This document shows positions 2,558 through 31,705 of a stretch of 64,000 bases of DNA, one piece after another; positions within the stretch are counted from its first letter, which is position 1, and every line of letters begins with the position of its first letter. The position numbers and the translations under genes were made by a program. The DNA comes from Alphaproteobacteria bacterium. GTDB taxonomy: Bacteria; Pseudomonadota; Alphaproteobacteria; JAVJVX01. The DNA is taken from positions 386,969-450,968 of the forward strand of contig JAVJVX010000003.1 in assembly GCA_040220875.1 (NCBI GenBank), given 5' to 3'. The notes beneath the pieces were generated by a model. That model did not search any database. It saw nothing but the letters and a program-made list of their open reading frames with translations, and was not told the origin of the DNA.

Positions 2558-2699
2558 CTTAAATCGTTCCTTTGTACCGAGTGTAATTCGGCGACAACAG
2601 GCTACCGTTGCCCCACAATTCTATTTGCCGCACGATCTTTTTCATACTGAGCGCGGGCTGAAAATGCCGATTTTCAATGTCCGATTTCGGGTTTGGTAA

Positions 2700-3722
2700 C
2701 TAGCCCGCGCGTCCAGTGCACCGCACGAACAACTTCTCTGCGCCGCCAAGAAATAACGCCTCGGACGAAATCCCGCCGCCAGTCGCGGCGAGCCGGAGCT
2801 CCGATCCCTTGACGCTCTTGAGTTCGAACTGCACGGTCTCGTCAATCGCGCCGTCGCGGAGCCGGCCAAGGAAGTCGTCATACTCGACGCGGTGGTCGAA
2901 ACTCATGATGACCGTGCCGTCGCGCAATTCCCATCGGCCGGTGCGCCACGGCAGAAGGCCGACCTTTTCGTTGGACGCCCGCCACCATTCGACCGTGCCG
3001 GTTCCGCTATTCTCGAACAGAATCACGCGTTCCTTTGCGCACTCGGCTTGGCTGGCGGACCACATGCCCGTCAGCGCCGCGCGCTTGCCTCCCGCGAGAC
3101 GACCAAGCAGTCCCGGACCCTCGGCCTTCGCTTCGCTCTCTTTCAGCACTACATCATAGGTCGTGCGAATTTCAGCAATCCGAGCAACTTGATCGTCGGC
3201 TGGCTTCTGCGCCGTATTGGGGGTAGTCGCCACTGTGCCATCGGCGACGGTTTTTCGGCTGACACGAAGCTGGTACTTGCCCGTAGACGAACCGACCATG
3301 GCGTCCAGAACGCGGGCGTCGCCCATAACGTAGCCCTGGGCGTTGGCCTCGCCGGCGCCGACGACAACCCCTGAGACCTTGAGCTGGTTGGAAGGATTGA
3401 CGCCGAGGGAGCGGCAAAGCGCGGCATAGTGGTTCATGCCCGTAAGTGCGGCTTCTTCGATCAGCGCATCGTCGCGCAATTGATCGGCCGTTTCGAAAAG
3501 CAGGATCATCTCCGTGACTTCGTGGCATTTGGGCTCGGCCGGGTGGAGGATGCGGAGCGCCACATCGACCGGCTCGTCATAGACAAACCAGCCAGGCCCG
3601 CCCTCGAAATTCCGAACCTCATAGTCGGCCGCGTTCGCCGGACCGAAGACTATGACACTCAGCAAACAGGCGGCGGCGACGCCTACGAAGGCGGAATGGC
3701 ATGAATGGCGATCCAATCGCAT
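2700..3722 (-). CDS. Unrecognised exported protein, ICE cargo
   Basis: The 340-residue product begins with a clear signal peptide: a hydrophobic stretch at residues 11-28 and a likely cleavage after PANA at 31. The ATG is preceded by GAAGGAGAT, which fixes the start. The mature protein is predicted periplasmic. It has scattered cysteines (in AEPKCHEV, AALCRS, QAECAKE and FVRCTG) that could form disulfides. A tail from about residue 205 (LTGMWSAS, then GTVEWWRAS and WRTGRWELRDG) resembles a small beta-barrel of the kind seen in lipocalin-like periplasmic proteins. I do not recognise the family. Confidence 0.7.
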   Translation of the reverse strand: MRLDRHSCHSAFVGVAAACLLSVIVFGPANAADYEVRNFEGGPGWFVYDEPVDVALRILHPAEPKCHEVTEMILLFETADQLRDDALIEEAALTGMNHYAALCRSLGVNPSNQLKVSGVVVGAGEANAQGYVMGDARVLDAMVGSSTGKYQLRVSRKTVADGTVATTPNTAQKPADDQVARIAEIRTTYDVVLKESEAKAEGPGLLGRLAGGKRAALTGMWSASQAECAKERVILFENSGTGTVEWWRASNEKVGLLPWRTGRWELRDGTVIMSFDHRVEYDDFLGRLRDGAIDETVQFELKSVKGSELRLAATGGGISSEALFLGGAEKLFVRCTGRAG

Positions 3723-4009
3723 AGATCATCTCCTTCTTTGCCCCCGCGCTCCTCCTTTTTGTCGGTTTTGAGCGCCGCCGGCGACGCGCCGCATCGCCCG
3801 TCCAACACCATCCAGAATGATAGCCGCTTCCGGTTGCAAAAATAAGGTCTGATGTTCTTGGGTAATATTGTCTGTTGCTGGCGATTGCTTCCTTATTTCT
3901 CCGCTCTTGGATGACGCTGGAAGTCATTGCCTTGATTCAAATGTGATTTCGTCACGATCCTTTGCCGGATTTTACCCGAGCTTTCGGCTCCGACACCGGC
4001 GCAGGATCG
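3723..4009. other. Divergent intergenic region upstream of traG
   Basis: This 287-base stretch separates the leftward cargo gene from traG. Its right part (about 3836-3960) is visibly more AT-rich than the flanks. It must hold the promoters of both directions, but I could not pick out a convincing -35/-10 pair or an oriT-like inverted repeat. The in-frame TTG at 3962 would extend TraG by 16 unlikely residues. Confidence 0.4.
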
Positions 4010-6049
4010 ATGACACCGACCAGACTCCTCATAGGCCAAATCTTCCTCGTCTTCGCGATCGTCATTGGCGCGGTGTGGGGCGCGACGCAGTGGACGGCGG
4101 CCGAGTTCGGCTATCAGGCGCGGCTCGGTCCGGCTTGGTTCCATGTCGTCGGTTATCCCGTTTACGTCCCGTGGCGGCTGTTTGAGTGGTGGTACGCCTA
4201 CGAAGCTTACGCGCCGGGGGTCTTCAACCGCGCCGGCGCGATGGCGGCGGGCGGCGGCATGCTCGGCGTCGTCGTCGCGATCGCCGGATCGCTGTGGCGC
4301 GCGCGGCAGGCCCGGCTGGTCACGACCTACGGCTCGTCGCGCTGGGCGACCAAGGGCGAGGTCGACAAGTCCGGTCTGTTCGAGCCGCAAGGCGTGTTCC
4401 TCGGCAGGCTGAAGGACCGTTATCTACGCCACGCCGGGCCGGAGCATGTCATGTGCTTCGCGCCGACCCGCTCGGGCAAGGGCGTCGGCCTTGTCATCCC
4501 GACTTTGCTGAGCTGGCCGCACTCCGCTGTCATCCATGACATCAAGGGCGAGAACTGGCAGCTCACCGCTGGCTGGCGGTCGCGCTTCTCGCACTGCCTT
4601 CTGTTCAATCCGACCGATCCCGCGAGCGCCAAATACAACCCGCTCCTCGAAGTGCGCAAAGGCCGGTTCGAAGTCCGCGACGTTCAGAACATCGCCGACA
4701 TTCTGGTCGACCCGGAGGGCGCGCTCGAACGGCGGAACCACTGGGAGAAGACCAGCCACGCGCTCCTCGTCGGCGTAATTCTGCATGTGCTTTACGCCGA
4801 GAAGGAGAAGACGCTCGCCCGCGTCGCGGCGTTCCTTTCCGACCCGTCGCGCTCCTTCGAACGCACGTTGCGGGTGATGATGAGCACCAATCATCTCGGA
4901 ACGGACAAGACGCCGCAGGTTCACCCCGTCGTCGCGCAGGCCGCGCGCGAGCTTCTGAACAAGTCGGGGAACGAACGCTCGGGCGTGCTCTCGACGGCCA
5001 TGTCTTTTCTCGGGCTCTATCGCGACCCGACCGTGGCGGAGACCACGAGCGCCTGCGAATGGCGTATCGCCGATTTGGTGGACGCCGAGCGGCCGGTCTC
5101 GCTCTATCTGGTCATTCCGCCTTCGGATATTTCGCGGACGAAGCCGCTGGTGCGGCTCGTCCTCAATCAGATCGGCCGCCGGCTAACGGAACGGCTGGAA
5201 GGGCAGGCCGGCAAACGGCGGCGTCACCAGCTCCTGATGATGCTCGACGAGTTCCCGGCGCTCGGCCGGCTCGACTTCTTCGAATCGGCGCTCGCCTTCA
5301 TGGCCGGCTACGGCGTCAGGAGCTTCCTGATTGCGCAAAGCCTCAATCAGATCACAAAGGCTTACGGGGATAATAACTCGATCCTCGACAACTGCCATGT
5401 CCGCATCGCATTCGCCTCGAACGACGAACGCACGGCGAAGCGCATCTCGGATTCTCTCGGCACAGCCACCGAGCTGCGCGCCATGCGCAACTATGCGGGT
5501 CACCGCCTCGCGCCCTGGCTAGCCCATGTCATGGTCTCGCGACAGGAAACGGCGCGGCCGCTTCTGACGCCCGGCGAGGTGATGCAGCTTCCCGCAGACG
5601 AGGAGATCGTCATGGTCTCCGGCCAGCCGCCGATCCGCGCGAAGAAGCTGCGCTATTTCGAGGACGCCAACTTCACAGGCCGGGTGTGCCCCCCGCCCGC
5701 GCTCGCGGCGGACGGTCCTTTTGCGGACCGTCCGCCATCCCGCGCCGACGACTGGAGGGACCAAGTGCGCGGCTCCCACGTCGATCTCGTCAAGCCGTGG
5801 TCGGAGCTCGTCTCGAACGGCGATGAAGACGAGGGTGAAAATGGGGGCGGCCTCAAGCGCCATCCTGCGCTTCCTGAGGAGGCGCCGGCCAAGCTGGAAC
5901 CCGAACGCGCGCCTGATGCCGGACTTCTCGACGACGAGTTCGACCCCAACGACGCCAGGCGGATGGATCAGCTCGCGCGCAATGCGACCGTGGTCCGGCG
6001 CGCCCACGCCATGGACCAGGCCGACGATGACCTGATTCCGAGCTTCTGA
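4010..6049 (+). CDS. traG: TraG/VirD4-type coupling ATPase
   Basis: The type IV coupling protein links the relaxosome to the mating channel at the inner membrane. From the ATG at 4010, preceded by AGGATC, the product has 679 residues. Two N-terminal membrane segments (about 7-27 and 76-96) are followed by the Walker A motif APTRSGKG at 151-158 and Walker B LLMMLDEF around 408-415. The acidic C-terminus is typical of substrate recognition. The gene heads the transfer operon and is followed after 11 bases by an RHH gene and then trbB. A TTG start 48 bases upstream is possible but less likely. Confidence 0.95.
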   Translation: MTPTRLLIGQIFLVFAIVIGAVWGATQWTAAEFGYQARLGPAWFHVVGYPVYVPWRLFEWWYAYEAYAPGVFNRAGAMAAGGGMLGVVVAIAGSLWRARQARLVTTYGSSRWATKGEVDKSGLFEPQGVFLGRLKDRYLRHAGPEHVMCFAPTRSGKGVGLVIPTLLSWPHSAVIHDIKGENWQLTAGWRSRFSHCLLFNPTDPASAKYNPLLEVRKGRFEVRDVQNIADILVDPEGALERRNHWEKTSHALLVGVILHVLYAEKEKTLARVAAFLSDPSRSFERTLRVMMSTNHLGTDKTPQVHPVVAQAARELLNKSGNERSGVLSTAMSFLGLYRDPTVAETTSACEWRIADLVDAERPVSLYLVIPPSDISRTKPLVRLVLNQIGRRLTERLEGQAGKRRRHQLLMMLDEFPALGRLDFFESALAFMAGYGVRSFLIAQSLNQITKAYGDNNSILDNCHVRIAFASNDERTAKRISDSLGTATELRAMRNYAGHRLAPWLAHVMVSRQETARPLLTPGEVMQLPADEEIVMVSGQPPIRAKKLRYFEDANFTGRVCPPPALAADGPFADRPPSRADDWRDQVRGSHVDLVKPWSELVSNGDEDEGENGGGLKRHPALPEEAPAKLEPERAPDAGLLDDEFDPNDARRMDQLARNATVVRRAHAMDQADDDLIPSF

Positions 6050-6060
6050 AGGATACGCCC

Positions 6061-6597
6061 ATGAAACCCCGCCTCAACGTTCATGTCTCTGACGAGCTTT
6101 TCGACAAGGTGGAGATTGCCGCGAAGCGGCCGGACGTCACCAAGGCGGCCGTGGTCGAGGCGGCGCTCATGGGTTTCTTCTCGAAAGAGTTCGACGATCA
6201 GCGTGACGGTGCGCTCATCCGCCGGCTCGACCGGATGACCCGGCAATATGACCGGCTGGAGCGCAATCTCTCGGTCACGGCCGAAACGCTGGCGCTCTTT
6301 ATCCGCTTCTTTCTCACCGTCACGCCGCCATTGCCGAACGCCGATCAGGACGCCGCCCGCGCCCTCGGCAAGGAGCGGTTCGATTATTTCATCGGCCAGC
6401 TCGCTCAGCGGCTTGCCGGCGGCAAGAACATGATCCGCGACGTGCTCGAAGAGGTGAGCGCCAAGGAGAGCGACTTCTTCACACAAGAGGAGGTCGACGC
6501 CTTGCAGGCCGTGCGGCAGGCCTATTCTCCGGACAACAACAGGCCGAACGGCGGAGCGGCTCACGACGACCTGATTGCGGAGGCGGATAATGGCTGA
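6061..6597 (+). CDS. Ribbon-helix-helix (CopG-like) protein of the transfer operon
   Basis: The 178-residue protein starts with a short beta strand and two helices (residues 2-40, MKPRLNVHVSDELFDKVEIA) that fit a ribbon-helix-helix DNA-binding fold, followed by a helical region and an acidic tail. An AAGGA site precedes the ATG. A CopG-like gene at this place, between traG and trbB, is a regular feature of Tn4371-like elements. Its role could be relaxosome assembly or operon autoregulation; the sequence does not decide. Its end overlaps the trbB start by 8 bases, so the two are probably translationally coupled. Confidence 0.8.
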   Translation: MKPRLNVHVSDELFDKVEIAAKRPDVTKAAVVEAALMGFFSKEFDDQRDGALIRRLDRMTRQYDRLERNLSVTAETLALFIRFFLTVTPPLPNADQDAARALGKERFDYFIGQLAQRLAGGKNMIRDVLEEVSAKESDFFTQEEVDALQAVRQAYSPDNNRPNGGAAHDDLIAEADNG

Positions 6598-7570
6598 CCG
6601 CTTCCATCCGGACACGGTCGATCGCCAGCGCACCATGCTGCGCACCGCCATGGGACCTGCGATTGCGGCGGCGCTGGCCGACCCCGCCGTCATCGAAGTG
6701 ATGGTCAATCCCGACGGCCGGCTTTGGCTCGACCGCCATGGTGACGGCCGCATCGACACTGGGAGGCGGATCGGCGCCGTCGAAGCCGAGCGGATCATCC
6801 GGCTGGTGGCGAGCCATATCGGCCAGGAGTGCCATCGCGAACACCCCGTTGTCTCGGCCGAACTGCCCGAAAGTGGCGAGCGCTTCGAAGGCCTGCTGCC
6901 GCCGGTGGCGCCGGCGCCATGCTTCGCCATCCGTAAGCCGGCCCGCATGCTCTACCGGCTCTCGGACTATGTGGAAGCGCGGATCATGACGTCGCTGCAG
7001 GCGAAGGCGCTGCGGGAGGCTGTCGAGACGCGCAAGAACATCGTCGTGGTTGGCGGGACGAGTTCTGGCAAGACGACGCTTGTCAACGCGCTCCTGGCCG
7101 AGGTCGCGACCGGCGGCGACCGGGTGATCCTCATCGAGGACACGCGCGAACTCCATTGTGCGGCGGAAGACAGCGTCAGCCTACGGACGAAGCCCGGCGT
7201 CGCCACGCTCGCCGATCTCGTACGCTCGACCCTGCGCCTCAGGCCCGACCGGATCGTCGTCGGCGAAGTCCGCGGCGCGGAAGCCCTCGACATGCTGAAA
7301 GCGTGGAACACTGGTCATCCGGGCGGCATTACGACGCTGCACGCCAACTCGGCCCATGCCGGGCTCTACCGGCTCGAACAACTCATCCAGGAAGCCGTCG
7401 TCACGGTTCCGCGCCGGCTGATCGCCGAGGCGATCGACATTGTCGTCTTCCTGAAGGGGCGGGGCTCGGGCCGCCGCGTCGAGACGGTCGCCGCGCTCGA
7501 AGGCCTCAACGCCAACGGCGATTACCGCCTCGCGCCGATGACGCCCGTTCACCTCGTTCCAACAGCCTGA
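6590..7570 (+). CDS. trbB: TrbB, VirB11-like secretion ATPase
   Basis: TrbB is the hexameric cytoplasmic ATPase that drives pilus assembly and DNA transfer in P-type conjugation systems. The 326-residue product has the Walker A motif GGTSSGKTT at 155-163, the Asp box LIEDTREL near 180-187, Walker B VVGEVRGAEALDML, and the His box GGITTLHANSA, all in the order of the VirB11 family. The start at 6590 lies inside the preceding RHH gene and was chosen over the TTG at 6575, which adds only five residues. All key residues are present, so the ATPase should be active. Confidence 0.95.
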   Translation: MADRFHPDTVDRQRTMLRTAMGPAIAAALADPAVIEVMVNPDGRLWLDRHGDGRIDTGRRIGAVEAERIIRLVASHIGQECHREHPVVSAELPESGERFEGLLPPVAPAPCFAIRKPARMLYRLSDYVEARIMTSLQAKALREAVETRKNIVVVGGTSSGKTTLVNALLAEVATGGDRVILIEDTRELHCAAEDSVSLRTKPGVATLADLVRSTLRLRPDRIVVGEVRGAEALDMLKAWNTGHPGGITTLHANSAHAGLYRLEQLIQEAVVTVPRRLIAEAIDIVVFLKGRGSGRRVETVAALEGLNANGDYRLAPMTPVHLVPTA

Positions 7571-7586
7571 CCAGGGAGACCGTCAT

Positions 7587-7937
7587 ATGAATCCATTTCC
7601 GCCTGATGCTTTGTCCCGTTTCCCGTACCGGCAGGCGCTGTTCACGGGCCTTCTTGTCGGCTTGGCGTTCATCTGGTCGGACGCCGCCCACGCCGCTGGC
7701 TCTGGCATGCCGTGGGAGGCGCCGCTCACCCAGATCCTGCAATCCATCGAAGGGCCGGTGGCGCGCATCATCGCCGTCATTGTCATCGTCATCACCGGCC
7801 TGTCGCTCGCCTTAGGTGAGTCGAGCGGCGGTTTCCGCCGGTTGATCCAGATCGTGTTCGGGCTGTCCATCGCCTTCGCGGCGACGAGCTTCTTCCTGTC
7901 CTTCTTCTCCTTCGGCGGCGGAGCGCTCATCGCATGA
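7587..7937 (+). CDS. trbC: TrbC, VirB2-like pilin precursor
   Basis: TrbC is the major subunit of the conjugative pilus, which for the P-type family is cyclised after processing. The 116-residue product has an N-terminal signal with hydrophobic core at about 16-28 and a likely cleavage after DAAHA, then two hydrophobic segments (about 50-72 and 84-110) joined by a short loop SSGGFRR. Size and topology match VirB2/TrbC. An AGGGAGA site lies just upstream. Its stop overlaps the trbD start as ATGA. Confidence 0.9.
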   Translation: MNPFPPDALSRFPYRQALFTGLLVGLAFIWSDAAHAAGSGMPWEAPLTQILQSIEGPVARIIAVIVIVITGLSLALGESSGGFRRLIQIVFGLSIAFAATSFFLSFFSFGGGALIA

Positions 7938-8191
7938 CCATCGAAGGCTTCGAAATCCCGCTTCATCGCGCGCTCACCGAGCCGATCCTAATGGGCGGCG
8001 CGCCGCGCACGGTGGCGATCGTCAACGGCACGCTCGCAGCGGCTCTCGGGCTCGGCCTCCAGCTTTGGCTCGCGGGGCTTGCCGTTTGGATCGTCGGCCA
8101 TGCGGCCGCCGTCTACGCCGCGCGCAAGGACCCCGCCTTCATGCAAGTCCTCATGCGCCACATTCGCCACAAGGGCCACCTCTCATGCTGA
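7934..8191 (+). CDS. trbD: TrbD, VirB3-like inner-membrane protein
   Basis: The 85-residue protein has the N-terminal pattern GFEIPLHRALTEPILMGG that marks the VirB3/TrbD family, then a hydrophobic hairpin of about 45 residues. VirB3 homologues sit in the inner membrane and contact the VirB4/TrbE ATPase. The gene overlaps trbC by four bases and trbE by seven, which is the usual tight packing and suggests translational coupling. Confidence 0.9.
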   Translation: MTIEGFEIPLHRALTEPILMGGAPRTVAIVNGTLAAALGLGLQLWLAGLAVWIVGHAAAVYAARKDPAFMQVLMRHIRHKGHLSC

Positions 8192-10650
8192 ATCTGGCGG
8201 AATACCGGAAACGTCCGGCGCTCCTGGCCGACTATCTGCCCTGGGCGTGCCTTGTCGCGCCGGGCGTCATCCTCAACAAGGACGGCGGGTTCCAGCGCTC
8301 GGCGCGGTTTCGCGGTCCCGACCTCGAAAGCGCCACGGAAGCCGAACTGGTCGCCGTTTGCGCGCGGATCAACAATGTGCTGCGCCGCTTCGGCTCTGGC
8401 TGGGCGCTCTTCTTCGAGGCCGAGCGGCATCCCGCCCGCGATTATCCGCATTCGGAGTTTCCGGACCTCGTATCGCGCCTTGTCGACGAAGAGCGCCGCG
8501 CCGCATTCGAAGAGTCCGGAGCGCTGTTCGAGAGCGGCTATGTCCTCACCTTCGCCTATCTGCCGCCGGCCGAAAATATCGGCCGCGCTGAGCAGCTTTT
8601 GATCGAAAGCGAAGGCGAGCACCGCGGCCTCGACTATCGCGATCATCTCGATGCATTCGTCCAGAAAACCAACCGGGCGCTCGACCTTCTCGGTGAGCTC
8701 ATGCCCGAAGTCGCGCCGCTCGATGACGAAGAGACGCTGACCTATCTGCACAACTGCATCTCGAACCGGCGTCTGTCCGTGGCCGTTCCCGAGACGCCGG
8801 CCTATCTCGATGCGGTTCTCGTCGACACATCGCTCACCGGCGGCCTCGCGCCGATGCTTGGCGAGGCACATCTTCGCGTGCTGACCGTGCTCGGCTTTCC
8901 GGGTTCGACGACGCCGGGGCTGCTCGACGCCTTGAATGGTCTTGGCTTCGAATACCGGTGGATGACGCGGTTCATTCCCCTCGACAAGGCGGCGGCGGAG
9001 AAGGCGATCAAGCGCTATCGCCGGCAATGGTTCGCCAAGCGCAAGTCGATCTCCGCCATCATCAAGGAGGTGATGACCAACGAGCAATCGGCGCTCGTCG
9101 ATACCGATGCGGACAATAAGGCGGCCGATGCCGACGCCGCGCTTCAGGAACTCGGCGCCGATCTTGTCTCTTATGGCTATGTCACGACGACCTTTGTCGT
9201 CTGGGACGAAGATGCGAATGGGGTCCGCGAGAAGGTGCGCGCCGCGCAGCGCGTGATCGACGGGCGCGGCTTCGCCACCATCGAGGAAAGCGCCAACGCG
9301 GTTGAAGCCTGGCTGTCGTCTCTGCCCGGCCATGTCTACGCCAATGTGCGAGCCGCGCCGGTCAACACGCTGAACCTCGCCCATATGATGCCGCTATCGG
9401 CAACTTGGGCGGGACCGGCGCGGAACGCGCATCTGGGCGGTCCGCCGCTCATCACGGTGCGGACCAACGGCACGACGCCGTTCCGGCTGGTCACGCATTT
9501 CGGCGATGTTGGCCACACGCTCGTCGTCGGCCCGACCGGCGCCGGCAAATCGGTCCTGCTGGCCCTGATTGCACTTCAGTTTCGCCGCTATAAGGACGCG
9601 CGGATCACCATTTTCGACAAGGGCGGCTCGGCGCGCGCCGCCGTGCTCGGTATGGGTGGCGCCTGGTTCGATCTCGGGGCGGCCAAGGAAGGCGTCAAGC
9701 ACGCGCTCGCCTTCCAGCCGTTCGCCAAAATTGATCTCACCGGCGAGCGGTCCTTCGCGCAGGAATGGGTGCTCGGGCTTCTTGCACACGAAGGCGTCGC
9801 GGTGACACCTGAGGTCAAGGATGCGGCATGGTCGGCGCTGTCGAATCTCGCCGCCGCGCCTCAACCGGAACGCACACTGACGGGGCTGGCGACGCTGTTG
9901 CAGCGAACCGAGCTTCGACAGGCGCTCCAGCCCTATACGCTCGAAGGACCATATGGCCGGCTTCTCGACGCCGATGACGACCGCCTGATCCTAGGCGCCG
10001 TCCAATGCTTCGAGATGGAGGAGCTGATGCACGAGGCGGGCGCGGTGCTGCCCGTGCTCACCTATCTCTTTCATCGCCTCGACGCGCAGTTCGATGGGCG
10101 GCCGTCGCTGCTCATACTCGACGAGGCGTGGCTCTTCCTCGACAATCCGGCCTTCGCCGCGCGCATCCGCGAGTGGCTGAAGACGCTCCGCAAGCAGAAC
10201 GTCTCGGTCGTGTTCGCGACGCAAGGCCTGTCGGATATCGCCGGCAGTTCCATCGCGCCGGCGATCATCGAGAGCTGCCCGAGCCGCATCTTCCTGCCCA
10301 ATGACCGGGCGATCGAGCCGCAGGCAAAGGCCGTCTACGAAGCCTTTGGCCTCAATGACCGGCAGATCGAGATCGTCGCCCGGGCCACACCAAAGCGCGA
10401 CTACTACTTCCAGTCCCGCCTCGGCAACCGGCTGTTCGAACTCGGTCTCGGCACCGTCGCGCTCGCCTTCACCGCCGCCTCGACCAAGCAGGACCATGCC
10501 CTGATGGACGAACTGGTCGCCGCCCATGGCGAGGAGGAGTTCGCGGATTCCTGGCTGCGCGCCAAGGGCCTCGATTGGGCGGCGGACCTCATAGCGTCCG
10601 AAACCGAACCCTTAAACCATCCCGACACGGAGGAGAACCATGAAACGTAA
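8185..10650 (+). CDS. trbE: TrbE, VirB4-like conjugation ATPase
   Basis: TrbE is the large ATPase that energises pilus assembly and substrate passage. I place the start at ATG 8185 (MLNLAEYRKR), giving 821 residues, the normal length for TrbE; the frame is open 120 bases further up inside trbD but without family similarity. The N-terminal CagE/VirB4 domain covers roughly 1-420. Walker A GPTGAGKS is at 449-456, and Walker B LLILDEAWLFLD is around 641-652. The gene overlaps trbD at the front and trbJ by 11 bases at the end. Confidence 0.95.
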   Translation: MLNLAEYRKRPALLADYLPWACLVAPGVILNKDGGFQRSARFRGPDLESATEAELVAVCARINNVLRRFGSGWALFFEAERHPARDYPHSEFPDLVSRLVDEERRAAFEESGALFESGYVLTFAYLPPAENIGRAEQLLIESEGEHRGLDYRDHLDAFVQKTNRALDLLGELMPEVAPLDDEETLTYLHNCISNRRLSVAVPETPAYLDAVLVDTSLTGGLAPMLGEAHLRVLTVLGFPGSTTPGLLDALNGLGFEYRWMTRFIPLDKAAAEKAIKRYRRQWFAKRKSISAIIKEVMTNEQSALVDTDADNKAADADAALQELGADLVSYGYVTTTFVVWDEDANGVREKVRAAQRVIDGRGFATIEESANAVEAWLSSLPGHVYANVRAAPVNTLNLAHMMPLSATWAGPARNAHLGGPPLITVRTNGTTPFRLVTHFGDVGHTLVVGPTGAGKSVLLALIALQFRRYKDARITIFDKGGSARAAVLGMGGAWFDLGAAKEGVKHALAFQPFAKIDLTGERSFAQEWVLGLLAHEGVAVTPEVKDAAWSALSNLAAAPQPERTLTGLATLLQRTELRQALQPYTLEGPYGRLLDADDDRLILGAVQCFEMEELMHEAGAVLPVLTYLFHRLDAQFDGRPSLLILDEAWLFLDNPAFAARIREWLKTLRKQNVSVVFATQGLSDIAGSSIAPAIIESCPSRIFLPNDRAIEPQAKAVYEAFGLNDRQIEIVARATPKRDYYFQSRLGNRLFELGLGTVALAFTAASTKQDHALMDELVAAHGEEEFADSWLRAKGLDWAADLIASETEPLNHPDTEENHET

Positions 10651-11365
10651 GCTTCTGGCGGCCGTCGCCGCCCTCGCCCTGATGGCGGGGCCTGTCCAAA
10701 AAGCCCATGCCATTTTCGGCGTCGGCGACGTGGTCTACGACCCGGCCAACCACGCCGAGAACATCCTGACCGCGGCGCGCACGCTCATCCAGATCAACAA
10801 TCAAGTCCAGCAACTCGCCAACGAAACGCAGATGCTGCTGAATGAGGCGCAGAACCTCGCGTCTCTGCCGACTTCTGTCGCGGCCGATCTTCGAACCTCG
10901 CTCGCGCGCGTAGACGGTCTCATCACGACCGCCCGCGGGATCGCCTATCAGGTCTCGGTCATCGACAGCGAATATCGTCGGCTCTTCCCCGAACAATATG
11001 CGGCGGCCGTCTCGACCTCGCAGATCGTCGCCGATGCGCAGGAAGCCTGGACCCTGGCGCGCGAAGGCTTCAAGCACAGTCTGGAGGTTCAGGCCGAAGT
11101 GGTCGGGCAGGTCCGCGCCGACACGGTGACGCTCGACGGCCTGATCACCGAAAGCCAGGGCGCCGTCGGCAATCTTCAGGTAGCGCAGGCTGGCAATCAG
11201 CTCACGGCGCTTGCCGCCAAGCAGACCATGCAGCTTCAGACGCTTCTTGCCGCTTCGGCCCGGGCCGACGCACTGGAGCGCGCGCGGAGCCTCGCCGCGC
11301 ACGAACAGGCGCGCGTCCGCTTCGTGCGTTTCATGGGCGACGGCGACGCCTATACGCGGCGCTAA
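10640..11365 (+). CDS. trbJ: TrbJ, VirB5-like pilus-associated protein
   Basis: The 241-residue protein has a signal peptide with cleavage likely after KAHA at residue 24, then a long helical, glutamine-rich body (PANHAENILTAARTLIQINN is the family hallmark). TrbJ is the minor pilus component or tip adhesin homologue of VirB5. The small entry-exclusion gene trbK, which often follows trbJ, is not present: only 16 bases separate trbJ from trbL and no lipoprotein frame fits. Confidence 0.9.
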   Translation: MKRKLLAAVAALALMAGPVQKAHAIFGVGDVVYDPANHAENILTAARTLIQINNQVQQLANETQMLLNEAQNLASLPTSVAADLRTSLARVDGLITTARGIAYQVSVIDSEYRRLFPEQYAAAVSTSQIVADAQEAWTLAREGFKHSLEVQAEVVGQVRADTVTLDGLITESQGAVGNLQVAQAGNQLTALAAKQTMQLQTLLAASARADALERARSLAAHEQARVRFVRFMGDGDAYTRR

Positions 11366-11381
11366 CTAAGGGGCACAGGCG

Positions 11382-12713
11382 ATGGATGACCTCAACGTCA
11401 TCGATCAGTTCACGGATACATTCGTCAGCTATATCGATTCCGGCTTCGGCTTGCTGACGCCGGACGTCGCCTTTCTCACGACCATCCTGATCGGGATCGA
11501 CATCACGCTTGCCGGCCTTTTCTGGGCCTTGGCCGACGACAAGGCTGTCATCCCGGCGCTGATCCGCAAGGTGCTCTATGTCGGCGCCTTCGCCTTCATC
11601 CTGAACAATTTCGCCTTTCTCGCGAATATCATCTTCGATTCCTTCGCGGGCCTTGGCTTGCGCGCCACTGGCGCGCCAATCAGCGCCGCCGACCTAATGC
11701 GTCCCGGCTTTGTCGCGGCGACCGGCTTTGACGCGGCGCAGCCTTTGCTGGCGGAGGTGAGCGACCTCATCGGCCCGATCGCGTTCTTCGAGAACTTCGT
11801 GCAGATCGCCGTGCTGATGGTCGCCTGGCTGATCGTGCTCCTGGCCTTCTTCATCCTCGCGATCCAGCTCTTCATCACCATTCTCGAATTCAAGCTGACG
11901 ACGCTTGCCGGGTTCGTGCTCGTGCCCTTCGCGCTGTGGAACAAGACGGCTTTCCTCGCCGAGCGCGTGCTTGGGAACGTGATCGCGGCCGGCATCAAGC
12001 TGATGGTGCTCGCCGTCATCGTCGGCATCGGCTCGACCTTGTTCGGCGCCTTTGCGGCCTCGTTCGCCGGCGGCGACATCACCATCGAGCAAGCACTCTC
12101 CACCGTGCTCGGCGCGCTCGCGATTTTCATGCTCGGAATCTTCGGCCCCGGCATCGCGGCAGGGCTCGTCTCGGGCGCGCCGCAGCTTGGCGCCGGCGCC
12201 GTGGTCGGCTCGGCTGCGGGTCTAGCCCTTGGCGCCGCCGCCGGCGCCAGTGTTGCGATGGGCGGCGCGCGTGCCCTTGGGGCCGCCGCTGGCGGTGCGA
12301 CTAGGGCGGCCGCTTCTGTCGCCGGCGGCGCAAGCACCGCCTATGGCCTCGGGCGCGCCGCTTCGGGGGCCTCCGGTCCGGCCGGTGTCGCTGCCGGCGT
12401 CACAGGCATGACCCGCGCTGGCGTCGGCGCCGTCGGTCAGGGCGTTCGCAATGTTGCCGACCGGGCGACCGCCGGCGTGCGCCAGTCCTTTTCCGATGGC
12501 GCGCGCGGCGCGTTCACCGCCACCGGCGGCGCACTTCCCGGCGGAACCGATATCCCGGCCGCGACCGCGGCAGCGAGCGGCGCGCCGGATTGGGCGCAAA
12601 GGCTGCGGCGCGAGCAGCGGATGCGCGAGGGCGTGAGCGTCGCCGCGCACACCGTCCGAGACGGCGACCGGCCCGTATCCGGCGAGAACCCACGGCTCAG
12701 GGATGACGAATGA
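11382..12713 (+). CDS. trbL: TrbL, VirB6-like polytopic channel protein
   Basis: The 443-residue product has at least five strongly hydrophobic segments between residues 20 and 260, followed by a long alanine/glycine-rich, low-complexity region (about 265-360) and a charged tail. This is the layout of TrbL/VirB6, the inner-membrane core through which DNA is thought to pass. AAGGGGC precedes the ATG. The stop overlaps the start of trbF as ATGA. The Ala/Gly-rich tail gives long open frames on the other strand that I do not call. Confidence 0.92.
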   Translation: MDDLNVIDQFTDTFVSYIDSGFGLLTPDVAFLTTILIGIDITLAGLFWALADDKAVIPALIRKVLYVGAFAFILNNFAFLANIIFDSFAGLGLRATGAPISAADLMRPGFVAATGFDAAQPLLAEVSDLIGPIAFFENFVQIAVLMVAWLIVLLAFFILAIQLFITILEFKLTTLAGFVLVPFALWNKTAFLAERVLGNVIAAGIKLMVLAVIVGIGSTLFGAFAASFAGGDITIEQALSTVLGALAIFMLGIFGPGIAAGLVSGAPQLGAGAVVGSAAGLALGAAAGASVAMGGARALGAAAGGATRAAASVAGGASTAYGLGRAASGASGPAGVAAGVTGMTRAGVGAVGQGVRNVADRATAGVRQSFSDGARGAFTATGGALPGGTDIPAATAAASGAPDWAQRLRREQRMREGVSVAAHTVRDGDRPVSGENPRLRDDE

Positions 12714-13408
12714 TGTTCAAGAGATCGACGACCGCATACGGACAGACGCCCGAACCGGTGACGCCCTACCAGAAGGCGGCGCAGGTCTGGGATGAGCGCA
12801 TCGGTTCTGCCCGCGTTCAAGCGCGGAACTGGCGCTACATGGCCTTCGGTTGTCTGGCGCTTGCGATCGGCCTTTCGGGCGGCGTTGTCTGGCAGGCGGG
12901 GCGCAGCACGATCACGCCCTATGTGGTCGAGGTCGATAAACTTGGCGAGGTGCGCGCCATCGGCCCGGCCATCTCCGCTTATGAGCCGACCGACGCCCAG
13001 ATCGCCTACACCCTCGCGCGCTTCATCGAGCATGTCCGCTCGCTTTCGATCGATCCGATCATCGTGCGCCAGAATTGGCTCAGGGCCTATGACTTCACCA
13101 CAACTGAGGCCGCGAACACGCTCAACGAATATGCCCGCGAGAACGATCCCTTCTCAAAGGTCGGCCAGCGCACCGTCACCGTCGAAGTGACGAGTATCGT
13201 GCGCTCCTCCGCCGACAGCTTCGACGTGCGTTGGCGCGAACAAACATTCGAGAACGGATCGCTCGCAGGCACGACCCGCTACACCGCCGTTCTCTCCATT
13301 CTCCTCCAGCGTCCGCGCACCGAAGAGACGCTGAGGAAGAACCCGCTCGGCATCTATGTCCGCGCGCTCAATTGGAGCCGCGACCACATCCCCGGAGACA
13401 ATCAATGA
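12710..13408 (+). CDS. trbF: TrbF, VirB8-like assembly protein
   Basis: TrbF is the bitopic inner-membrane assembly factor homologous to VirB8. The 232-residue protein has a cytoplasmic N-terminus (with the family pattern TPYQKAAQVWDERIGSA), one membrane span at about 45-66 and a periplasmic domain to the end. The start overlaps trbL and the stop overlaps trbG, each as ATGA, so the stretch trbL-trbF-trbG-trbI is fully coupled. Confidence 0.93.
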   Translation: MMFKRSTTAYGQTPEPVTPYQKAAQVWDERIGSARVQARNWRYMAFGCLALAIGLSGGVVWQAGRSTITPYVVEVDKLGEVRAIGPAISAYEPTDAQIAYTLARFIEHVRSLSIDPIIVRQNWLRAYDFTTTEAANTLNEYARENDPFSKVGQRTVTVEVTSIVRSSADSFDVRWREQTFENGSLAGTTRYTAVLSILLQRPRTEETLRKNPLGIYVRALNWSRDHIPGDNQ

Positions 13409-14439
13409 AGAAAATCGCCATATTCGCCCTAGCCGGTCTGCTCGCGGCCTGCGCCCACAAAGAGCTTCCGCCCGAGATCAGCTATGACAGCACCGATTTC
13501 GACGCGGCGACGCTCGCCGCCGAGCCGCCACGCCCCATCCGCATCGTCACGCTGCCCGAACCACTGCCACTGCCGGGGCAGTTGAAGCCCGTGCCGCGCG
13601 GCAGCGAGCCGCTGGCGCCGGACACGCGATCGGCGGAAGAGCGGGTAGAGGATGCCAACGCCGCGGCCGCCATGGAGCCGAGCGCGGACGGCTACATCAA
13701 CGCCATTCAGGTCTATCCCTATACGGAAGGCGCGCTCTATCAGCTCTATACGGCGCCGAGCCAGGTGAGCGACATCGCGCTTCAGAAAGGGGAAGAGATT
13801 GTCTCCGTCTCTGCCGGCGATACGGTGCGCTGGGTCATTGGCGACACGGTGAGTGGCGACGGAGAGAACGCCCGCGCTCATGTGCTGGTGAAGCCGATCA
13901 AGGCGGACCTCAAGACCAACCTCGTCATCATCACCGACCGGCGCGCCTATCATCTGGAGCTCACGAGTACACCCGAGACCTATATGGCCTCGGTGTCCTG
14001 GACATATCCCCATGACGAGCTTCTGGCGCTTCGCCGGGACAACAAAACGGCGGAAGAGGCCGCTATCCAAGTCGTCGATAAGGGCCTCGATATCGACAAG
14101 CTGCGCTTCCGCTATGCTGTCAGCGGCGACGCGCCGCCCTGGCGGCCGGTGCGCGTCTTTGACGATACCCACAAGGTCTATATCCAGTTCCCGGCCCGTC
14201 TCGACCAGGGCGAAGCGCCTCCGCTCTTCGTCGTTGGGCCGGACGGGGACAATCAGCTCGTCAACTACCGGGTGCGCGGGCGCTATTACATTGTCGATCG
14301 GCTGTTCGCCGCCGCCGAGCTTCGGTTCGGCGAAGACCCGCAACAGGTGGTGCGCATCACCCGCACCGACGGCCGTCCCGCCGTGACCGGCCAAGAACGG
14401 TCGGACGCCATCGGCGCGTTCGAGGCCGGAGATCGCTGA
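13405..14439 (+). CDS. trbG: TrbG, VirB9-like outer-membrane channel lipoprotein
   Basis: From ATG 13405 the product has 344 residues. The N-terminus is a lipoprotein signal with lipobox LLAAC (Cys16), so TrbG here should be lipid-anchored at the outer membrane, where VirB9 homologues form the core complex with TrbI. The region INAIQVYPYTEGALYQLYTA and the tail FAAAELRFGEDPQQVVRI are typical. The frame is open further upstream within trbF, but the ATGA overlap and lipobox fix this start. Confidence 0.93.
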   Translation: MKKIAIFALAGLLAACAHKELPPEISYDSTDFDAATLAAEPPRPIRIVTLPEPLPLPGQLKPVPRGSEPLAPDTRSAEERVEDANAAAAMEPSADGYINAIQVYPYTEGALYQLYTAPSQVSDIALQKGEEIVSVSAGDTVRWVIGDTVSGDGENARAHVLVKPIKADLKTNLVIITDRRAYHLELTSTPETYMASVSWTYPHDELLALRRDNKTAEEAAIQVVDKGLDIDKLRFRYAVSGDAPPWRPVRVFDDTHKVYIQFPARLDQGEAPPLFVVGPDGDNQLVNYRVRGRYYIVDRLFAAAELRFGEDPQQVVRITRTDGRPAVTGQERSDAIGAFEAGDR

Positions 14440-16586: not shown

Positions 16587-17414
16587 ATGAAAGTTAACGT
16601 GCTCATGTCCCGGCTCGTTTCAGCCCCGTTCTTCAGCGCCCGGCCGGTCTTCGACCGAGCCGAATACGCTGCGGCTGTGGGCCGCCGGCCCAACGACAAG
16701 GTCGTTACGGCCATGCTCGCCCAGCACCTTCGGGCAGGCAATATCAAGCGCGTCGCACGGGGCGTCTTTGCCTCCGTCCCCAAGCACGCCGATCCCGACA
16801 AATGGTCCGTCGATCGATTCCTGGCGGCCTCCCGTCTACGGCGCGGCGGTGTCATCGCCTATCACTCGGCCCTTGAGCTTCACGGTTGCGCCTACACGGA
16901 GGGCCATGAGGTGCAGGTTATCGCGCCCGGTGAGCCGGGCGTCGTCGAGACCGCCGATTTCTCCTGCCGGTTCGTGAAACCGCCGCGTGGCTTCGCTCAG
17001 GAAAATGGCAACTTGGCCGACGGCGTTACGGTCGTCGATCGCATGGGGCTTGAGGTCCGTGTGACCACGATCGAGCGGACAATCGCGGACCTCTTCGACC
17101 GCTATGATCTCGCGGGCGGTGCGGAGGAACTTTTCAATTCGCTCGATCTCGTCGCGCGCGTCGATGCCGCCGCCTTGGTCCGGCATGCGCGCGCGCTCGG
17201 CAATGCGACGGCGGCCGGCGCCTTGGGATATTGGCTGGAGCGCGAACAGCACCGGCTCGGTGTAGAAAGCGCGGCGTTAAAAAAGCTGCACGCGCTCGCC
17301 CCGCGACAAGCGCGATACGCCTTAGCCGCCAAACCGGGCGAAGGCCGGACGGCTACGGGTTGGAATGTGATCCTGCCCGTCGAGGTCATAGAGCCTCAGT
17401 TCGAGGGCGTATAA
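16587..17414 (+). CDS. abiEi: AbiEi family antitoxin
   Basis: AbiEi is the antitoxin and autorepressor of the type IV AbiE system. The 275-residue protein has an N-terminal winged-helix region (about 10-75, with AQHLRAGNIKRVARGVFASV) and the conserved core IAYHSALELHGCAYT, then TTIERTIADLFDRYDLAGG, which are family hallmarks. A second ATG at 16605 could be the true start; neither has a strong ribosome site. Its stop codon directly abuts the abiEii ATG, so the two are one operon. It sits at the start of the defence cargo, just after the inverted repeat at 16337. Confidence 0.9.
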   Translation: MKVNVLMSRLVSAPFFSARPVFDRAEYAAAVGRRPNDKVVTAMLAQHLRAGNIKRVARGVFASVPKHADPDKWSVDRFLAASRLRRGGVIAYHSALELHGCAYTEGHEVQVIAPGEPGVVETADFSCRFVKPPRGFAQENGNLADGVTVVDRMGLEVRVTTIERTIADLFDRYDLAGGAEELFNSLDLVARVDAAALVRHARALGNATAAGALGYWLEREQHRLGVESAALKKLHALAPRQARYALAAKPGEGRTATGWNVILPVEVIEPQFEGV

Positions 17415-18392
17415 ATGGCGGCGCCTTCAACCCAGACCCTGCAGCGCATCGCCAGCGAGACCGGCTATCAGGTCGGCACGCTCGAAAAGGTGATCCGGCT
17501 CCTCGACATCCTGCAAGAGGTCGCTCGCGATCGGGTCTTAAGCGAGCGGCTTGCTCTCAAGGGCGGCACGGCGCTCAACGTCTTTCATCTCGGCCTCGAC
17601 CGTCTGTCGGTCGATATCGATCTCAACTATGTCGGCGCGCTCGACCGTGGGGCGATGGAGACTGAGCGGCCTGAGGTCGAGGCAGCCCTGAACCGGCTCT
17701 TGGCATCCCAGGGATACACGATCCGCCGTCAGCCGGATGAACATGCCGGCGGCAAGTGGATCATGCGCTTCGCGTCGGCGCTCGGCGGAAACGCGACGTT
17801 GGAGCTCGACGTGAATTACATGGCGCGTCAGCCCCTGTTTGGCGCTGCTCGCGTGTCATCGGCCGCGCTTGGGGACATGCGCGCGAGCGAAGTGCTGGTG
17901 CTCGACCTTCAGGAGATCATTGCCGGCAAGCTGGTTGCGCTCTTTGATCGCCATGCCGCGCGCGATCTCTTCGATGCACGGCGTATCCTGTCGATTGAGG
18001 GACTCGACTGGAAGAACATCAAAGCCGCGTTTCTGGCGTTCGGCGCCTGCGCGCGCCGTGATTGGCGATCGGTTTCGATCGACGCAATCAAGGGCGACCC
18101 ACGGGAGCTTCGTCAAAAGCTCCTGATCTGCCTGCCGCGCGGCTATTTCGGTGGCAAGGACGCGATCGATGCGTGGATCGAGGAGACGGTCGTGCTCTGC
18201 CGGGAGCGATTTGCTTTCCTGTTCGATCTTTCCGCGGACGAGCAGGCATTTCTTGATAGCGTGCTTGACCGCGGCGAAGTCAACGCTGATTTGCTTGACG
18301 TCCCGTTTGATATCCGCGCCCGGATCGTGACCATGCCGATGCTCGCCTGGAAATGTCAAAATGTGCGCACGCATTACCAGTTAGAAGGTTAA
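17415..18392 (+). CDS. abiEii: AbiEii/AbiGii family nucleotidyltransferase toxin
   Basis: AbiEii toxins are nucleotidyltransferases; characterised relatives modify tRNA ends and stop growth on phage infection. The 325-residue protein has the signature KGGTALN at 49-55 and the metal-binding SVDIDLN with Asp67 and Asp69, followed by the later conserved block VLVLDLQEIIAGKLVALFDR. All expected catalytic residues that I can place are present. It follows abiEi without a spacer, so its dose is tied to the antitoxin. With abiEi it would provide abortive infection and also stabilise the element. Confidence 0.92.
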   Translation: MAAPSTQTLQRIASETGYQVGTLEKVIRLLDILQEVARDRVLSERLALKGGTALNVFHLGLDRLSVDIDLNYVGALDRGAMETERPEVEAALNRLLASQGYTIRRQPDEHAGGKWIMRFASALGGNATLELDVNYMARQPLFGAARVSSAALGDMRASEVLVLDLQEIIAGKLVALFDRHAARDLFDARRILSIEGLDWKNIKAAFLAFGACARRDWRSVSIDAIKGDPRELRQKLLICLPRGYFGGKDAIDAWIEETVVLCRERFAFLFDLSADEQAFLDSVLDRGEVNADLLDVPFDIRARIVTMPMLAWKCQNVRTHYQLEG

Positions 18393-19664: not shown

Positions 19665-22529
19665 ATGCCGATGCCGCTGGATAAATGGCAGGAGCATCTG
19701 GAAGGGCATTTTGCCGCCCTGGCGGTATCCCGTACGGCATCCGGTTTCCCGATTTTTGCCTTGGAGCACGGGCTTACAGAGGAAGAGTTTGACGACATTG
19801 CGGACCAGTTACGTGCGCGCGTCGCGGCTCGAAAGAGATTTGCACCGCATTGGCTGCTGTGGGCGATATATGCCGCAGAACGCGGCTATAGCTATACAGG
19901 TGGCGAATACTGGCCGTCATTTGAGGAAAGCACGCCTGGCTGGGAGTACAAGGACCGCTACAAACTTCCGGGCTGGTTCGCCAAATTCCAGAAAACCTAT
20001 AACGGCGTTGTCCCTTCCGGCCCATGGGCCGGACATTTTCGGATCATTGCCTGGCCCATCACCCAAGCCGTGCTGCCACGCTATCTGCAACGGCATTTTG
20101 CCAAAGCGCTTTACGAACTTCGCTTTCGGCTCGCCAGTCTTACTTCGATCGACCCGGCCGCGATCGGCCGCATGATCGCCGCCAACTACCACGGATCGAC
20201 GCGCTTTGAAGAATTTCTACAGCAGGAAGAACTTGTTGGCCGGATCGTCCTTGCTCTCCTGCACCAGGACCCCCGTGAAGGCGAAGAGCCATTGCTGCCT
20301 TCTACACTTGAGCGCATCACGAGCGACCTGGAGCGGGTCAGAAGCGCGCGAGACTGGCTCAAGGAAGCTAGCCGCGTTGTTACGGACCGCTTTAAGGGCA
20401 TTGGCCGCGGCGTCGGCCCGCGGGGGTTTGCGGCCGGGCTGGAACCGGGCGGCTTGCCAAGGGATCGGGAGCCGTTGCCCGACATCAGGCCGGATTTGCA
20501 GCTTCGCTATGCAGGCAATGACACCTGGACCCTTTTACTTGATTTGCCCAGCTTTAAAAGCATCGCTGCACTGAATGCCGACATTCGCCAGTTCCTTCGG
20601 CGGACACGGTGCAGCATCAACGGCGCGGAAGGAAAGAAATCTGTTGGCTGGGTTCTTTCCGGCAACCGCCGCGCCGTCCTCAAGAAATGGCCCGATCCTG
20701 AAAAGCCGCTTGTCCGGTTTGACCAAAGCCAGGCTGCCGTCGATCACCTGCTTGAAACCGAATGCCGCATGACCACGGGTCCCGTCTGGCTGTTTCGCGT
20801 CGGGCGCGACGGCCTAGCGCGCGAAATTGCAGGCCGGATCATGCGGCCCGGACAGGAATACGTTATCGCCAGCGAAAACGCGCCGCGTGATCTGCAGGAC
20901 GGCATGCACCCCTGCACGATAGACTGCCATGGGATAGAAGCGGTCCGGGTCACTGTCCCCCCTGACGTTTCGGCCGATTATATTCACTGGCTTTCAAAGC
21001 ACGGCTTAGAACTGGCACGGACTATTCGCGTCTGGCCCGCAGGCTTGCCGGGCCGCAACTGGGACGGTGAAGGCCGCAGCGAATGGCTGACGACCGAGAT
21101 GCCCTGCCTCGGCATTGTGCCGGATCATCCGGTTGACTCATATGTGATCAGTCTCGACGGAAAGGCCAGCACGGTTGCCCGCGCCGGACCGACAGGGCAA
21201 CCGACATTCATACGATTGCCGCAACTCGATGCCGGCACGCATCTGCTGACTGTGCAAGCGCAGCGCAGCGCCGCTCTTGACGACATTACGAAAACATCCG
21301 CGCACGAGGGCTTTGTCGAACTGCGCGTACGGGAGCCCGAACCGTGGATTCCGGGAACCGCATCCCATGCGGGTCTGATTGTAACTGGCGATCCGCACGA
21401 TGCAGGGCTCGATACATTTTGGGAAAACCGCTTCAACCTATCAGTAGTCGGACCCGAACACCGAAGCGTCACGGCCACCGTGATCCTTGAAGACGCCAAA
21501 GGTGAGGAGGTATTCGGCGGTCAGGTAAACGCGTCATTGGAATTGCCGATTACGCCGGATGCCTGGCACAGGCGTTTTGGCGACTTTCTCAAACGCGAGC
21601 AGTGTGAATGGCGCTACCTGGAAGCGTCTGCCGGCATTCTCAAAATCAATGGCCAGGAGCTCGGCGAATTTACGCTCCGGTTTGAACACGAAGCGCAGCC
21701 GCTGAGATGGGTGCTCCGCCACGAGAACGGACGACTGATTGTCCGTCTTGTTGATGACACGGGACAGGAAGACGGGCACCTGAAATGCCGTTATTTCAGC
21801 ATGGAAGAGCCAGCCAGGATCGCGCGTCTTGATGCCGCCAGCGCTCTGGCCGGGACACAATTGGAGCCGCCCGGCGGTCTCTTTACAGCGCAATCGGGCG
21901 ATTATCGCGACACAATACTGGTCAGTGCAGGGCTGACTGGCGCCGGGCTGGAGGGCCTCGGCGTTACCCCCCGATATGATGATGTGCGCGATGATCCTGC
22001 GGCTGTCATTAGGGCGCTCCGCATACTGCGATATTGGCGAAAAGCGCGCCTTGCCGGCTTTGTCGCAGGCGCAAGACGCCAACAGGTTATGGACGGCCTG
22101 CTGCTCGCCATCTACGGCATTCTTTGCGGGCCGCAATGGATCAGAGCCGAAAGACGATTTCTCGACAACCCGAACGCGCCGCGCGCAGCGGACAATCTGC
22201 AGGCCGCGATTGGAAAGCACGGCGGCTATTCCGCCGTCCTGCGCCGTGATGCCGCCGGCATTGACCACAGATTTGCTTCTATAACCACTTGGTACGCAGA
22301 CCTTGCCAAGCGCTACGGCGTTTGCCGCGATCCCGGGCTATGCGCTTTCGCGATACGGCTTGCCAGTCAACCGCACCGTTTGCCGCGCCTGTTTGGCGAC
22401 GAACTCGAAGGGCTTCTTGTTCGCCTAAAGAGCAGTCCTGTCTTGTTGCGCGGGGCACGGTTCCTGGCCCTGCTATCCGCAACTCACGATGGCAATACGC
22501 ACGCCTTGCTTCCGGAGTGGAAGACATGA
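19665..22529 (+). CDS. Large unrecognised protein in a Druantia-like cluster
   Basis: The 954-residue protein has three visible zones. An N-terminal aromatic-rich helical part (1-230) includes HWLLWAIYAAERGYSYTGGE and WAGHFRIIAWPITQAVLPRY. The middle is long and beta-rich (about 280-760). A helical C-terminal part (about 780-954) contains ALRILRYWRKARLAGF. I see no nuclease, ATPase or methylase motif. It starts six bases after druA and overlaps the next gene as ATGA. By position it could replace DruB/DruC of type I; by size and position before the helicase it could also be related to type III DruH or the STY4851/YjiT-like proteins. I cannot decide from sequence alone. Confidence 0.8.
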   Translation: MPMPLDKWQEHLEGHFAALAVSRTASGFPIFALEHGLTEEEFDDIADQLRARVAARKRFAPHWLLWAIYAAERGYSYTGGEYWPSFEESTPGWEYKDRYKLPGWFAKFQKTYNGVVPSGPWAGHFRIIAWPITQAVLPRYLQRHFAKALYELRFRLASLTSIDPAAIGRMIAANYHGSTRFEEFLQQEELVGRIVLALLHQDPREGEEPLLPSTLERITSDLERVRSARDWLKEASRVVTDRFKGIGRGVGPRGFAAGLEPGGLPRDREPLPDIRPDLQLRYAGNDTWTLLLDLPSFKSIAALNADIRQFLRRTRCSINGAEGKKSVGWVLSGNRRAVLKKWPDPEKPLVRFDQSQAAVDHLLETECRMTTGPVWLFRVGRDGLAREIAGRIMRPGQEYVIASENAPRDLQDGMHPCTIDCHGIEAVRVTVPPDVSADYIHWLSKHGLELARTIRVWPAGLPGRNWDGEGRSEWLTTEMPCLGIVPDHPVDSYVISLDGKASTVARAGPTGQPTFIRLPQLDAGTHLLTVQAQRSAALDDITKTSAHEGFVELRVREPEPWIPGTASHAGLIVTGDPHDAGLDTFWENRFNLSVVGPEHRSVTATVILEDAKGEEVFGGQVNASLELPITPDAWHRRFGDFLKREQCEWRYLEASAGILKINGQELGEFTLRFEHEAQPLRWVLRHENGRLIVRLVDDTGQEDGHLKCRYFSMEEPARIARLDAASALAGTQLEPPGGLFTAQSGDYRDTILVSAGLTGAGLEGLGVTPRYDDVRDDPAAVIRALRILRYWRKARLAGFVAGARRQQVMDGLLLAIYGILCGPQWIRAERRFLDNPNAPRAADNLQAAIGKHGGYSAVLRRDAAGIDHRFASITTWYADLAKRYGVCRDPGLCAFAIRLASQPHRLPRLFGDELEGLLVRLKSSPVLLRGARFLALLSATHDGNTHALLPEWKT

Positions 22530-31661: not shown

Positions 31662-31705
31662 TCATAATCCGCGTGTCGGGGGTTCAAGTCCCTCCTCCGC
31701 TACCA
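31662..31705 (+). other. attR: 3' fragment of a CAU-anticodon tRNA gene
   Basis: From TCATAATCCGC onward the sequence gives the 3' half of the anticodon loop and stem (TCCGC), a 5-base variable loop, a T-arm (GGGGG, loop TTCAAGT, CCCTC, with one G-T pair), the acceptor strand CTCCGCT, discriminator A and CCA. The upstream bases (GAGGC) do not pair with TCCGC, and no D-arm or 5' acceptor strand is present, so this is not a functional gene. A CAU tRNA, probably elongator tRNA-Met, was therefore the integration target, with the crossover in or near the anticodon loop. Confidence 0.8.

Follow-up and report, generated by a model that had tools for sequence, protein, structure and literature searches.

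X, a large protein encoded between DruA and DruD, is a candidate sensor or adapter subunit of a Druantia type I-like system

What does a large protein without any familiar domain do in the middle of a bacterial defence array? We asked this of a 954-residue protein, here called X, that is encoded on the forward strand of a 64,000-nucleotide stretch (hereafter, the window) of contig JAVJVX010000003.1 from an alphaproteobacterium. Its open reading frame (ORF) starts with ATG and comprises 954 codons, with boundaries that were confirmed as exact. The gene lies between druA and druD in the order DruA-X-DruD-DruE-NERD/UvrD. Six bases separate it from druA, and its TGA stop overlaps the ATG of druD at 22526; the DruA neighbour and the ATGA coupling to the next gene described in an initial annotation were thus both confirmed. 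That annotation had also found no recognisable domain, and this held: X matched no Pfam family, no PHROGs entry and no PADLOC model (even at E = 1), its sole NCBIfam match arose by chance (E = 0.05, scoring 12 bits where the cut-off is 592 bits), a sequence search of the PDB returned nothing (best E = 0.18), and a Pfam scan of 34 X and three X-like members gave scattered chance matches only. Nor was there a full-length match of X to any well-described protein unrelated to Druantia. We read X as the large subunit specific to a Druantia type I-like variant, taking the place of DruB and DruC in the gene order and serving as a sensor or adapter that activates the DruE machinery, and we assign this reading a probability of about 0.5.

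X is a regular member of its array. A single scan with a DruD profile, covering about 85,000 genomes, yielded 35 loci in Alpha- and other Proteobacteria, Acidobacteria, Bacteroidota, and Armatimonadota, and the X gene, coding for 927-982 aa where complete, lay directly upstream of druD in every one. The ATGA coupling was likewise conserved, the X stop falling three bases past the druD start in most loci. A short DruA stood in front in 22 loci, and a long DruA (about 560-700 aa) was present elsewhere in the array in 10, usually on the opposite strand; NERD/UvrD was present in 24 loci, absent from 7, and undetermined in 4. The distance matrix of X correlated with that of DruE at r = 0.97 (n = 32) and with those of NERD, DruA, and DruD at 0.97, 0.94, and 0.93 (0/2000 permutations each). 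By these sequence comparisons, X and its partner genes travel as a unit, although a common host history also raises such correlations. As to viral contigs, X was found on them at three loci and X-like at two, and DruB was not found. One plasmid locus, of Sinorhizobium medicae, carried a decaying copy in which X was in pieces and an IS3 element interrupted druE.

Within this unit, X diverges quickly. In close pairs, the ratio of nonsynonymous to synonymous substitution rates (dN/dS) was about 0.1-0.2 for X versus about 0.05-0.12 for DruE, and the mean pairwise identity across the same loci was 0.44 versus 0.66. On these figures, X is functional and less constrained than the DruE helicase. It also diverged faster than DruA (mean identity 0.66) and NERD (0.65) where these genes are present. 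Judged by these ratios, X is under purifying selection; gene-wide positive selection was rejected, pairwise dN/dS being below 0.2. A faster divergence than that of DruE is the pattern reported for DruH in Druantia type III (PMC13192584).

The full-length AlphaFold model, built with 34 sequences (mean predicted local distance difference test score, pLDDT, of 75), bore out the three-zone layout proposed from the sequence, with helices in front, strands in the middle and helices at the end (limits in the table). Mean pairwise identity fell from 0.54 in the N-domain through 0.40-0.47 in the middle to 0.32 in the C-domain. The N-domain carries the motifs EHGL (34-37), GYxYxGxEYW (74-83), and IIAWPIT (127-133). 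Modelled alone from 39 sequences, it was all-helical with a pLDDT of 84 (over half of the residues scoring above 90) and a predicted template modelling score of 0.80. Foldseek searches against the PDB and viral models gave no fold match for it at E <= 0.001, and a known enzyme or fold was rejected for this domain. The middle resembled chains of multiple immunoglobulin (Ig), FN3, or macroglobulin (MG) domains (best E = 1.6e-6, with template modelling (TM) scores of only 0.1-0.15), which supports an Ig-like model at the level of the fold class only.

Relatives of X occur in other, independent helicase arrays. A tblastn search of plasmids with X matched the first ~240 residues of unnamed proteins of 990-1260 aa, here called X-like. 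Comparison of the X and X-like profiles gave E = 5e-38 over 740 columns and, with more members, a probability of 100% and E = 3e-42 over 771 columns, i.e., homology over nearly the whole length, and on this full-length homology we propose a single X/X-like family. Across 15 of 15 divergent members, identical residues were E34, L37, E72, G74, W83, P117, I128, W130, P131, and R217 in the N-domain and W791, A794, G822, W825, and R932 in the C-domain. The X-like gene is followed by one for an SNF2 helicase. In four loci (L005, L006, L055, and L056), this pair is divergent to a UvrD-like (GajB-like) protein, DrmA, DrmB, and mostly NERD, and in two (L044 and L045) to DruE, NERD, and a small protein with, in L044, a weak DruD match. 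The family, and its occurrence in both DruE and DrmA/DrmB arrays, was not found in the libraries or literature searched.

The arrays with DrmA and DrmB are possibly an undescribed DISARM-like type; DrmC was not recognised next to these arrays in the four loci. They share with the X system a full-length X homologue and, in most, a NERD-type protein, but differ in that the helicase is split into DrmA and DrmB, that a GajB-like UvrD is added, and that an SNF2 helicase comes after X-like, both on the other strand from DrmA/DrmB. The window has DruE and lacks the DrmA-DrmB pair of DISARM, which only the distant relatives of X adjoin. ARMADA, like the X system, is an array built around a YprA-family helicase; it differs in components that are absent from the genes of the window system. 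In the X tree, DruE-associated X-like proteins were mixed among DrmA/B-associated ones (supports 0.88-0.93), a pattern suggesting exchange of the X-like/SNF2 pair between helicase arrays. In the SNF2 tree, however, the two DruE-associated SNF2 proteins grouped together (0.995), so that the six sequences provide no more than a lead.

How, then, does the X system relate to Druantia type I, which is DruA-DruB-DruC-DruD-DruE in the definition of Doron et al. as given in PMC7251935? DruA (DUF4338), DruD, and a type I-group DruE helicase were each recognised in the window by their PADLOC models and are of known kinds. The two systems have in common DruA, DruE, a protein matching PADLOC DruD1, and the gene order; they differ in that X replaces the absent DruB and DruC, that DruD is far from E. 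coli DruD, and that NERD/UvrD is added in most loci. We took canonical type I sequences from P. putida pKF715A, a record in which PADLOC confirms DruB, DruC, and DruD, and from E. coli E62. Neither DruB nor DruC matched X; in the genome that carries X, the DruB model PDLC00005 found nothing and the DruC model PDLC00006 nothing at E <= 1e-10. Where genomes were sampled for canonical DruB/DruC, matches were either lacking or short and spurious, and a search of E. coli DNA with a Nitrosococcus druE found nothing. In a DruE tree rooted on type III, the X branch joined the X-like/SNF2 branch, apart from the DruB/DruC branch, which grouped with a haloarchaeal one (supports 0.999-1.0). Because this tree separates the branches, the alternation of X with DruB/DruC in type I-like systems is, as judged from DruE phylogeny, a deep split. 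The haloarchaeal DruE that groups with the DruB/DruC branch comes from an array at 2383-13424 of a Halalkaliarchaeum plasmid, in which a long DUF4338 protein stands divergent to this DruE and a pair of unnamed genes of 413 and 608 aa.

Since its full-length relatives adjoin DISARM-type helicases, X is probably a sensor or adapter part common to several defence machines. We infer its sensor role against the following background. In type III, DruE is a helicase-nuclease that binds 3' tails, and DruH, which has Ig-like domains and evolves faster, has been proposed as the likely sensor (PMC13192584). The DruE of type I carries an inactivated Vsr domain (PMC12458937), in agreement with the DruE C-terminus in the window, a nuclease remnant without the conserved ExK by conservation analysis. 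A review places Druantia under DNA methylation sensing and describes a phage factor that promotes site-specific methylation and thereby evades type I (PMC12904381). In our proposal, the conserved N-domain of X would dock on a part common to the arrays, be it the YprA helicase, the NERD helicase, or their DNA, and its Ig-like chain, together with the variable C-domain, would recognise some cue of infection, whether a phage protein or a DNA structure. Once this cue is bound, DruE would be licensed to load on and unwind phage DNA, and NERD/UvrD, where present, would make the cut. With its intact nuclease motif, NERD/UvrD is the likely cutter because the C-terminal nuclease of DruE itself is degraded. 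The X-type system is a putative phage defence.

Several observations weigh against this proposal. No catalytic or binding site was identified in X, and the Ig-like assignment stands at the level of the fold class, with the low TM scores given above. Instead of an arms race, relaxed constraint may explain the fast evolution of X, and DruD changes at about the rate of X. At least 7 loci lack NERD/UvrD, which therefore cannot be the obligatory nuclease there. An activity of an X-type variant was not found in the literature searched.

The main rival, which we hold to be the less probable of the two though worth serious weight, is that X is a scaffold holding DruA, DruD, and DruE on DNA, with phage sensing left to DruA or DruE. 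A multi-domain chain without an enzyme match would suit a scaffold, as would the strict co-occurrence of X and the concentration of conservation in the N-domain, as expected for a docking part; yet the partners should constrain a pure scaffold, and X is far more divergent than DruE and DruA. The initial annotation had favoured a scaffold or sensor over an enzyme, which remains likely. That X is instead an enzyme of a new fold, whose active site would comprise the nearly invariant N-domain residues E34, H35, E72, R98, and R217, we consider improbable. Charged residues are invariant across X and X-like, and a domain without a fold match in the PDB leaves room for a new enzyme fold; however, no known catalytic motif is present, W, G, and P residues that are likewise invariant in this stretch point to a structural role, and an all-helical domain offers no clue.

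That X is a divergent DruH/STY4851 protein, as had also been suggested, has very little chance of being right. DruH (STY4851/YjiT) of type III is alike in size (~1,000 aa) and domain order (helical ends, a beta-rich or Ig-like middle) and likewise varies faster than DruE, its gene adjoining that of DruE, so that the suggestion survives as an analogy of general layout. It failed by sequence: against a profile of six DruH members (E. coli WP_001513100.1 and five others), X reached 0.6% at best, close to the level of decoys, where reversed sequences gave 0.1% and the X/X-like positive control 100%, and neither PADLOC, which holds DruH models, nor NCBIfam gave a match. A 5% match over 69 columns of the Ig region, seen with a single DruH, vanished with the family profile and decoys. 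DruH also differs in that type III consists of DruH and DruE only. Biochemical work has reported DruH as an ATP/Mg-bound dimer with nuclease activity (PMC13192584). Least credible is a fusion of the type I subunits DruB and DruC, for although X occupies their gene position between DruA and DruD, profile comparison gave 0.4% and 0.03%, respectively, which is decoy level, the canonical pair totals about 1,180 aa, and DruC matches coiled-coil proteins whereas the model of X has no long coiled coil.

Coordinates of X, its zones and neighbouring features in the window
Feature	Position	Strand	Basis
X, 954-aa protein	19665..22529	+	ORF; directly upstream of druD in 35/35 related loci
X residues 1-243, helical N-terminal domain, conserved, common to X-like	19665..20393	+	AlphaFold; invariant residues
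X residues 277-754, beta-rich middle, chain of Ig-like beta-sandwich domains (fold class)	20493..21926	+	AlphaFold model; Foldseek
X residues 762-941, helical C-terminal domain, fastest-evolving folded zone	21948..22487	+	AlphaFold model
AbiEi antitoxin (neighbour, outside system)	16587..17414	+	PADLOC E=6e-83
AbiEii nucleotidyltransferase toxin (neighbour, outside system)	17415..18392	+	PADLOC E=2e-105; Pfam AbiEii
DruA, short form (DUF4338), 410 aa	18426..19658	+	PADLOC PDLC00002 E=3e-211; Pfam DruA E=4e-81
DruD, 362 aa	22526..23614	+	PADLOC PDLC00010 E=3e-137
DruE, YprA-family SF2 helicase with MrfA Zn-binding domain, 1857 aa	23620..29193	+	PADLOC PDLC00013 E=0, 2046 bits; Pfam DEAD, MZB
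NERD-type PD-(D/E)xK nuclease fused to UvrD-like helicase, 658 aa	29277..31253	+	Motif conservation
attR, tRNA-Met 3'-end copy, right end of element	31665..31705	+	41-bp match, 2 mismatches

NERD/UvrD is a conserved accessory gene of the X-type system, and its motifs ED(I)D...ExK and GRGGVGKT (Walker A) were kept in at least 95% of 21 homologues. DruD of the window and its relatives showed weak homology to E. coli DruD, and the other DruD model, PDLC00008, gave no match in two genomes or records of the X-type variant; the mean identity of DruD was 0.47, a divergence close to that of X. In four loci (L044, L036, L045, and L053), a GHKL ATPase of 516-588 aa (HATPase_c_3, E to 1.5e-22) flanks a long DruA (about 560-690 aa), and it is possible that this ATPase is an obligatory partner of the long form.

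The system is carried by an element of about 56.6 kb that resembles an integrative and conjugative element (ICE) and lies in a tRNA-Met gene (G000:C3:361996-418673, window portion 8065-31705). At its left end, tRNA-Met (attL, G000:C3:361996-362072) stands beside a tyrosine integrase (about 362.0 kb), and a Trb/VirB module lies between the ends. Its cargo includes the AbiE toxin-antitoxin pair and, at the right end, the X-type Druantia variant. This ICE-like setting fits a horizontally moved defence module.

A broader proposal, to which we give a little less credence than to the sensor or adapter role itself, is that X typifies a family of recognition subunits, so far unrecognised, whose members can be exchanged. 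Such a module, alone or with SNF2, would plug onto YprA-family helicases (DruE, or DrmA with DrmB), its exchange generating new defence types, and "Druantia type I" would fall into two deep subtypes whose sensor subunits, DruB/DruC and X, are unrelated. The mechanisms of Druantia III are being worked out; type I is little understood, and no role was assigned to its DruB, DruC, and DruD in the literature searched. With X, type I acquires a second and simpler layout built on a single large subunit. Since X lacks a model of its own, model-based defence finders likely under-call X-type systems. The relatives of X beside DrmA/DrmB provide a concrete part shared by Druantia and DISARM-like arrays besides the helicase and, because they supply this common part, what is required to switch on DruE-type helicases becomes testable through swaps.
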